Assembly (NCBI RefSeq): GCF_003076515.1
Contig: NZ_CP022390.1
Location: 1,550,001 to 1,614,000 of the forward strand
Source: Alcaligenes aquatilis
GTDB taxonomy: Bacteria > Pseudomonadota > Gammaproteobacteria > Burkholderiales > Burkholderiaceae_B
Length of the DNA: 64,000 nucleotides
Reading direction: 5' to 3'
The notes under the pieces were generated by a model. That model made no database searches. It saw only the letters and a list, made by a program, of their open reading frames with translations, and was not told the DNA's origin. Position numbers and translations under genes: made by a program. Positions 1 through 1,722 of the stretch are shown here, piece after piece (position 1 is the first letter of the stretch; every line of letters begins with the position of its first letter).

Positions 1-552
1 ATTCGTGTGGTGCGTCGCATCAGTGGCGGTGGCGCCATGTTTATCGAACCTGGCAATACCATTACCTATTCGCTTAGCGTGCCCAAACAATTTGTAGCCG
101 GCATGACCTTTCAGGAGTCCTACGAGTTTCTGGACTCATGGGTCATTGAAGCCCTGCGCGACATTGGTATTGATGCCTGGTACCAACCGCTGAACGACAT
201 TACCAGCGCCGGTGGAAAAATTGGGGGTGCCGCACAAGCACGACGTGGCAATGCCGTCTTGCATCATGTCACCATGGCCTACGACATTGATGCTGACAAG
301 ATGTTGGAAGTTCTACGCATCGGCAAAGAAAAGCTCTCAGACAAAGGCACCACCAGTGCCAAGAAACGCGTGGACCCTATCCGCAGCCAAACAGGTATGA
401 GCCGTGAAGCGGTTATAGAAGCCATGCTGGATATATTCCGCAAAAAGACGGCTCTTAAACCCGGCACACTACCCACTTCAACATTGGAACAGGCCGAAAA
501 ACTGGCACGCGACCGCTTCCTGTCAAACGACTGGACACAACTGGTGCCCTGA
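1..552 (+). CDS. Lipoate-protein ligase A family protein (5' truncated by window)
   Basis: The reading frame is open from base 1 and ends with TGA at 550-552, so the N-terminus lies outside the window. The visible part holds the hallmark RRISGGGAMF motif of the biotin/lipoate A/B protein ligase fold, followed by GGKIGGAAQARRG, where the lysine and the Gly/Ala-rich loop normally contact lipoyl-AMP, and a C-terminal region of the kind found in LplA. The expected role is attachment of lipoate (or octanoate transfer) to E2 and GcvH subunits in the cytoplasm. I cannot separate ligase from octanoyltransferase because the start is missing. The next gene (586-780) converges on it. Confidence 0.8.
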   Translation: MRVVRRISGGGAMFIEPGNTITYSLSVPKQFVAGMTFQESYEFLDSWVIEALRDIGIDAWYQPLNDITSAGGKIGGAAQARRGNAVLHHVTMAYDIDADKMLEVLRIGKEKLSDKGTTSAKKRVDPIRSQTGMSREAVIEAMLDIFRKKTALKPGTLPTSTLEQAEKLARDRFLSNDWTQLVP

Positions 553-585: not shown

Positions 586-780
586 TCAAAACCCGCCCAT
601 GCTGCCCAACCATAACAAGCCAGGAATACTGGCACCCCACACAGCAACCAAACACACATCCATGACCTTGGCTTTGAAAGACAAGGGCTTGTTAAATGGA
701 CTGGAAGAAGCTGCAGAGCGAACCGGGCCACGGAAACGTGGAGTGGCTTGCGGACGGTAATGACGGCTTGGACTAGACAT
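586..780 (-). CDS. Small predicted single-pass membrane protein under a LexA box
   Basis: A 64-residue protein that I do not recognise. Residues 1-38 are basic and Ser/Pro/Arg-rich (SRHYRPQATPRFRG), with no acidic residue. Residues 41-61 form one hydrophobic segment (VCLVAVWGASIPGLLWLG) with a central Ile-Pro-Gly, and only a few residues follow. The positive N-terminus suggests N-in topology in the inner membrane. I start it at the ATG at 778-780 because GGAG (787-790 on the plus strand as CTCC) lies six bases upstream; an ATG at 790-792 is in frame but would sit almost on the predicted transcript start. Promoter elements and a perfect LexA site lie directly upstream (794-832). By analogy with small SOS-induced membrane peptides it could block division, but this is inference; no homologue is known to me. 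Confidence 0.55.
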   Translation of the reverse strand: MSSPSRHYRPQATPRFRGPVRSAASSSPFNKPLSFKAKVMDVCLVAVWGASIPGLLWLGSMGGF

Positions 781-793
781 GGCTAACTCCATT

Positions 794-832
794 TACTGTT
801 TTCTTATACAGTACTGTACTTAAAACCAGCAA
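794..832 (-). promoter_or_regulatory. LexA (SOS) operator overlapping a sigma70 promoter
   Basis: Positions 794-813 read TACTGT-N8-ACAGTA, an exact CTGT-N8-ACAG LexA core with the flanking TA/TA of the E. coli consensus. On the minus strand a -35 TTGCTG (827-832) and -10 TATAAG (803-808) are spaced by 18 bases. The -10 lies inside the operator, so LexA binding would occlude it. The predicted start near 796 gives a short leader containing GGAG before the ATG at 780. A second overlapping palindrome, ACAGTACTGT, lies at 808-817. Confidence 0.7.
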
Positions 833-1021
833 CCAGTGCAATCAGTACCTATCATGATGTTGCGCTTGCCCCACTGACACACTGCAAACCCAGTCCTGAC
901 ACCACTTACAGCCAATTGGCCATAAAGCGTACCATCCCAGCCCTAACCGTCTTCGCGACTGAAAAGCCACTTGCATCCAGTGCTTTGCACAGTAGTTCCA
1001 TACCGTAACGATGCCCACAAA

Positions 1022-1080: not shown

Positions 1081-1722
1081 TTACTTGTTAGGCTGAGGCG
1101 TCACACGCAGGTAGGGACGAATCTCGGTGTAGCCTTTAGGGAACTTCTGCTTCAGAACTTCAGGATCTTTCAGGCTAGGAACGATAATCACATCGTCGCC
1201 GTCTTCCCAGTTCACTGGCGTAGCCACGCTGTGGCTGTCGGTCAGTTGCAGGGAATCGATCACGCGCAGAATTTCGTTGAAGTTGCGGCCCGTGCTGGCA
1301 GGGTACGTAATGATCAGACGCACTTTCTTGGCAGGGTCGATGATAAACACCGAACGCACTGTCACGGTGGTGCTGGCATTGGGGTGGATCATATCGTACA
1401 GATCCGACACCTTGCGATCCGCGTCAGCCAGGATGGGGAAATTAACGGTGGTTTTTTGAGTTTCGTTGATATCGTCAATCCACTTGCCGTGGGAATCAAC
1501 ATCATCAACGGAAACAGCAATTACTTTTACGTCGCGCTTGGCGAACTCGTCCGCCAGCTTGGCGGTATAACCCAGTTCGGTGGTGCACACAGGCGTAAAG
1601 TCGGCTGGGTGGGAGAACAAGACGCCCCAGCTATTACCCAGAAACTCGTGAAATTTGATGGTGCCGGCGGAGGATTTTTGTTCAAAATCAGGGGCCAGGT
1701 CACCCAGACGAAGTGTAGCCAT
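1081..1722 (-). CDS. 1-Cys peroxiredoxin (Prx6 type)
   Basis: A 213-residue thiol peroxidase that reduces peroxides in the cytosol. The peroxidatic cysteine is Cys46 in the PVCTTE motif, preceded by HPADFTP. It is the only cysteine in the protein, so no resolving cysteine exists within the chain, which together with the long C-terminal arm (NWEDGDDVIIVPSL) places it in the Prx6/1-Cys group rather than with AhpC. The start is supported by AGAGGAACGCA before the ATG. It appears monocistronic: a terminator follows, and another (1850-1886) separates it from the upstream-lying acyl-CoA dehydrogenase gene. The reductant partner cannot be told from the sequence. Confidence 0.93.
   Translation of the reverse strand: MATLRLGDLAPDFEQKSSAGTIKFHEFLGNSWGVLFSHPADFTPVCTTELGYTAKLADEFAKRDVKVIAVSVDDVDSHGKWIDDINETQKTTVNFPILADADRKVSDLYDMIHPNASTTVTVRSVFIIDPAKKVRLIITYPASTGRNFNEILRVIDSLQLTDSHSVATPVNWEDGDDVIIVPSLKDPEVLKQKFPKGYTEIRPYLRVTPQPNK

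Follow-up and report, generated by a model that had tools for sequence, protein, structure and literature searches.

Gene X and its upstream region

The 64-kb stretch of DNA analysed here (the window) carries near one end a short minus-strand gene, hereafter X, preceded by a ribosome-binding sequence, a candidate promoter, a LexA box and a second, LexA-like box, and neighboured by genes for a peroxiredoxin and a lipoate-protein ligase (Table 1). Its frame translates into a protein of 64 residues, and the uninterrupted frame, the ATG and the ribosome site ahead of it are all as the first-pass annotation had given them. Because an alternative in-frame ATG, four codons 5′ of this start in the window's genome, is replaced by ACG in seven same-genus genomes, the listed ATG is likely to be the start of X. 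The minus strand at 619–633, inside X, could form a terminator-like hairpin, probably by chance (0.7 expected in shuffles).

Table 1. Features of the X locus, in window coordinates
Feature	Position	Strand	Remarks
Lipoate-protein ligase, convergent neighbour	1..552	+	NCBIfam NF053751, E 7.9e-89, 298 bits, below the cut-off of 550; frame partial at window edge
Gene X, 64 codons and stop	586..780	-	Coding part 589-780, stop 586-588, ATG 778-780
Predicted single transmembrane helix of X	598..678	-	Codons 35-61; AlphaFold2 and hydropathy
Ribosome-binding GGAG	787..790	-	Six bases 5′ of ATG; kept in 10 aligned same-genus loci
LexA box 1, TACTGTATAAGAAAACAGTA	794..813	-	TACTGT-N8-ACAGTA; retained in sister species
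LexA-like box 2, TGCTGGTTTTAAGTACAGTA	812..831	-	7/8 core bases; two bases in common with box 1
Candidate promoter TTGCAC-N17-TACAGT	813..841	-	Overlaps the LexA boxes
Peroxiredoxin, neighbour upstream of X	1081..1722	-	NCBIfam NF009668, 219 bits against a cut-off of 211

Box 1 is the exact CTGT-N8-ACAG site with TA flanks that had been predicted from the sequence, and X starts 13 bases below it. Taken by itself the bare CTGT-N8-ACAG is unsurprising, with one occurrence in the window against 0.86 expected; the flanked form TACTGT-N8-ACAGTA occurs in the genome of 3 838 299 bases only at X, and the reversed-pattern control gave none. Box 2 was absent from the first-pass annotation. The −35 element proposed there (TTGCTG, 18 bases ahead of TATAAG) did not hold up, as the window's genome has it but nine other loci from the genus lack it, while TTG-N3-N17-TACAGT, the candidate listed in Table 1, is found in 10 of 10 same-genus loci. 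A generic sigma-70 scan of 540–1100 gave no match at its threshold on either strand, so neither candidate promoter is near consensus. No plus-strand frame of at least 40 codons starts in 813–1230, from which we conclude that the boxes serve X.

Relaxing the pattern to TNCTGT-N8-ACAGNA gave five sites in the window's genome, compared with one for the reversed control. Such sites lie at X, just 5′ of imuA, upstream of a frame with an SRAP domain and, as the strong box TGCTGTATGGATGAACAGTA (G000 C1:906110-906129), just above a 113-codon frame for which no NCBIfam or Pfam family was found. A LexA-like site is also present at G000 C1:2335596-2335615 (TCCTGTGCATAAAAACAGAA); the control leads one to expect about one site of this kind. 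The lexA gene of the window's genome has its own box, TACTGTATATATATTCAGCA.

Distribution and conservation of X

The first-pass annotation had described X as a betaproteobacterial, apparently undescribed small protein, and had named as checks the conservation of its frame in Alcaligenaceae, the ratio of synonymous to non-synonymous change and the conservation of the LexA site in sister species; the comparisons below favour it throughout. Searched with a profile of 47 orthologues, 31 of the 37 family genomes contain X (E 7.9e-9 or better), against none of 24 genomes that represent other families in the order. In a wider draw of 300 genomes of the order, searched by profile with scoring limited to 19 candidates per genome, six had a match to X, all six within the window's family. 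The six family genomes without X measure 0.8 to 2.7 Mb and those with it 3.1 Mb or more. lexA was found in all 31 family genomes with X and in five of the six without it, and X is therefore dispensable.

A scan of named genomes located 87 X loci, of which the best 80 were kept; these represent Alcaligenes, Achromobacter, Bordetella, Pusillimonas, Pollutimonas, Candidimonas, Castellaniella and others, together with two bins labelled only Burkholderiaceae. The X profile matched 349 database proteins. Among the 120 matches listed, the named ones belong to Alcaligenaceae or to a 'Burkholderiaceae bacterium' and are called 'hypothetical' or 'uncharacterized', except for one automatic 'RDD family' label to which Pfam scans of 21 aligned orthologues give no support. 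Left out of the X counts were a match in G030 (E 0.035) and second short matches in G000, G002, G003, G006 and G007 (E 0.02 to 0.044); a weak match in G054 (E 0.009, one internal stop) was gone in the profile search. Titles and abstract openings among the literature matches listed held no description of X. X would form a new family inside a known functional class.

Eight Alcaligenes orthologues gave a pN/pS of 0.048 for X (487 synonymous against 73 non-synonymous differences, summed over 28 pairs), with 10, 1 and 36 variable sites at codon positions 1, 2 and 3, respectively. Each of the other five reading frames has a stop in at least two of the eight sequences; one antisense frame also shows a low pN/pS (0.19) but is interrupted in all eight. 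In an alignment judged by eye, the DNA 5′ of X has mostly diverged except for the promoter and the boxes. That X is a real gene under purifying selection is well supported by these comparisons. Being short and without a family match, X might have been a chance open frame whose box serves something else, but the selection test already refutes this, and both the orthologues across the family and the lack of a plus-strand frame beyond the boxes argue against it, leaving it vanishingly improbable.

A LexA box is present at 76 of the 80 named loci, and the remaining four end at a contig edge with 170–202 bases upstream. By a criterion of 7/8 core bases and 12/20 overall, at least one box lies upstream of X itself in 48 of the 80, and 46 have two, spaced 18 to 34 bases; in 27 further loci, and likewise at locus L098 (28 of 80), a radical SAM (rSAM) gene lies directly 5′ of X and the box is at its start. 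Two boxes were found within 340-base windows at 44 of the 46 testable loci among these 48, which were chosen for having a box and, like the named loci as a whole, come from related and in many cases close species, so that they are not independent trials. As controls, none of 267 downstream windows had even one box, and of 920 single-base shuffles 18 had one and none had two. A LexA box over the promoter that is kept in relatives, the mark of SOS regulon membership, is thus found at X, and its assignment as a LexA-repressed SOS gene is well supported at the sequence level.

Predicted structure of the protein

AlphaFold2 modelled X as one helix (residues 35–61) with a low-confidence tail (mean pLDDT 63.6, pTM 0.32), the pLDDT reaching 78 for residues 31–40 and 85 for residues 41–50, and the Kyte-Doolittle maximum of 1.69 falls on residues 39–57. 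These predictions agree with the basic N-terminus and single membrane helix put forward by the first-pass annotation, and give X the one membrane helix of the SidA/YneA-type class. The model points to a basic, probably disordered tail followed by one C-terminal helix. Across 48 orthologues, whose starts were chosen by script, the tail has a net charge between +2 and +12.

Residues D41, W48, I52, P53, W57, G63 and F64 are invariant in the 47 stand-alone orthologues; outside this set, the G034 orthologue has F and V in place of W48 and I52, and the G017 orthologue ends GY. By this comparison the helix is conserved well beyond a plain anchor. A one-sided helix face of conserved residues was not significant (p 0.07, 0.17 and 0.17). 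No family was found for X in Pfam, PHROGs or PADLOC (21 orthologues) or in NCBIfam (window's protein only), and no solved structure was matched; DUF5976 was rejected as a candidate, having been touched by one of the 21 members only (E 0.13).

TisB and DinQ of Escherichia coli are single-helix peptides under SOS control, and both are held by antisense RNAs. DinQ is described in an excerpt of PMC3567139 as a toxic single-helix peptide. X has SOS control, small size and a single helix in common with these peptides, and might likewise depolarise the membrane and slow growth after heavy damage. An antisense RNA was, however, not found for X, a weak point that comes from the lack of any Rfam match in 400–1200 and of any promoter-like site on either strand in 540–1100. 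The distance between box 1 and the start codon leaves no long leader, in 27 loci X follows rSAM in an operon and has a ribosome site of its own, and the aspartate at the helix start and the internal proline, kept in 47/47 orthologues, suggest specific binding. We consider a depolarising role distinctly unlikely.

Gene neighbourhood and the radical SAM operon

X occurs in two architectures, either standing alone or, in Achromobacter and Bordetella loci, behind an rSAM gene. In several genomes the stand-alone X lies between a peroxiredoxin gene and rplS (both named by eye), and rplS is present in the window's genome too. At locus L037 (G018, on a contig shared with L106, Paracandidimonas soli) the peroxiredoxin gene and X are separated by an additional gene on the opposite strand, which has ~440 codons and looks HD-GYP-like by eye.

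In the 27 named rSAM-X loci, the rSAM gene and the first ATG of X are −4 to 111 bases apart. One rSAM protein from these loci was scanned and belongs to the PA0069 family (NCBIfam NF033668, 453 bits against a cut-off of 360). The motif [KRN]WPF is found in X at 27/27 of these loci, compared with 30/48 stand-alone loci, none of them in Alcaligenes. A C-terminal QLxLF-like motif, which we take to resemble sliding-clamp motifs, occurs in 26 of the 27 linked rSAM proteins. PA0069-type rSAM genes score over the cut-off in 12 of the 37 family genomes, and all 12 have a box near their start; among ten rSAM genes in genomes outside the family the box is strong in two, weak in one and absent from six, with one unscored by the script. 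PA0069 itself belongs to the Pseudomonas LexA regulon, a point on which our literature search found nothing. The LexA regulons of Gram-positives and of Balneolaeota are reported to include radical SAM proteins (excerpt of PMC7739468).

The arrangement raises the alternative that X serves SOS repair at the membrane, as a partner or an anchor, above all of the PA0069-type rSAM protein. The rSAM gene directly 5′ of X in 28/80 named loci fits this, as does the presence of X in all 12 rSAM-bearing family genomes, but in six of those 12 the rSAM gene is linked to X and in the other six it lies elsewhere. Moreover, no rSAM scores over the cut-off in 19 of the 31 X-bearing family genomes, among them all ten of Alcaligenes, and we regard a dedicated repair partner as very unlikely.

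SulA and ImuA

If X arrests division, its part in the response would correspond to that of SulA of E. coli and Pseudomonas, which is a soluble protein. SulA stops FtsZ polymerisation (excerpt of PMC13396833). We found no SulA match in the window's genome, and X itself matches neither the Pfam SulA model (PF03846) nor any other Pfam family. Across 61 genomes, PF03846 matched 12 at E 0.01 or better, six of them over the cut-off; 11 lie outside the family and the other is G020. By the profile search none of these 12, G020 included, has X, which looked like mutual exclusion. Ten of the 12 matches adjoin a lexA match, and the three that were scanned against NCBIfam (G053, G040 and G041) are ImuA over the curated cut-off, the others having been read by eye only. 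The idea that X replaces SulA was dropped, the three scanned matches being ImuA and the window's genome encoding an ImuA of its own behind a LexA box. In Burkholderiales the PF03846 model catches ImuA, which makes the SulA label an annotation trap there.

A possible SOS division checkpoint

SidA of Caulobacter crescentus, a 29-residue inner-membrane protein under SOS/LexA control, binds FtsW and arrests division (excerpt of PMC4211646). X, too, is a very small LexA-controlled (judged by its boxes) and inner-membrane (by prediction) protein, but it has 64 residues, and FtsW binding, shown for SidA, is for X a proposal. DidA, from the same species and excerpt, is also a small membrane protein; it is damage-induced, blocks division and binds FtsN, but is induced by DriD and not under LexA. 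According to an excerpt of PMC13396833, YneA of Bacillus subtilis is SOS-induced and has one membrane helix that docks on FtsW, where low-confidence models place ChiZ, SosA and SidA too; outside the cell YneA and ChiZ carry a LysM domain, and the helix of SosA is extended, whereas X ends at the membrane.

By analogy with these systems, we postulate that X serves as an SOS checkpoint protein in the membrane, specific to this lineage and most likely inhibiting the late divisome in the manner of SidA or YneA, and give this reading a probability of about 0.5. RecA filaments would trigger LexA self-cleavage, the two boxes over the X promoter would clear, and a short single-pass inner-membrane protein would be made. 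Its tail, because it is basic, would remain in the cytoplasm (positive-inside rule), with one helix crossing the membrane and the C-terminal GF at the outer face. We infer that the conserved helix would bind a membrane partner, most likely in the late division machinery (FtsW/FtsI/FtsN), and that X bound at the divisome would pause septum synthesis during DNA repair.

Division inhibition is preferred for three reasons. First, among the small single-pass proteins under SOS control in the excerpts of PMC4211646 and PMC13396833, it is the function reported most often. Second, conservation of the helix exceeds what a plain anchor would need. Lastly, the window's genome gave no SulA match, which is a weak point because SulA is hard to detect and the apparent exclusion between SulA and X rested on ImuA. 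The target might instead be a transporter, a protease, or a lipid or wall enzyme outside the divisome, in that nothing in the sequence names the partner and the conserved helix would fit any specific membrane partner; the prevalence of division arrest among such proteins speaks against another target, which we think unlikely. Several observations count against a division inhibitor as well. No characterised inhibitor came up as a homologue of X in the library scans, and X lacks the periplasmic LysM domain that YneA needs besides its helix (excerpt of PMC13396833). Its conserved residues form no significantly one-sided face, and their invariance breaks in the G034 and G017 orthologues. X is missing from five family genomes with lexA, and an rSAM gene beside it in 28 loci fits a repair-linked role equally.

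Our literature search found no description of how Alcaligenaceae restrain division under DNA damage. Alcaligenes, Achromobacter and Bordetella all carry X, which is short, can be deleted and has a predicted inducer, so that the question becomes open to direct testing; X also connects a membrane protein with a radical SAM gene that has an SOS box. More tentatively, X may represent a new SOS checkpoint family, specific to Alcaligenaceae, whose members would act within the membrane to halt septum synthesis in bacteria that gave no SulA match. In Achromobacter and Bordetella it would share one LexA-boxed operon with an rSAM protein carrying a C-terminal, sliding-clamp-like motif, and a single transcript would there couple division arrest to the repair of lesions. 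Should X bind FtsW, this would be a further, independent case in favour of a recently proposed convergence of unrelated SOS membrane proteins on FtsW (excerpt of PMC13396833).
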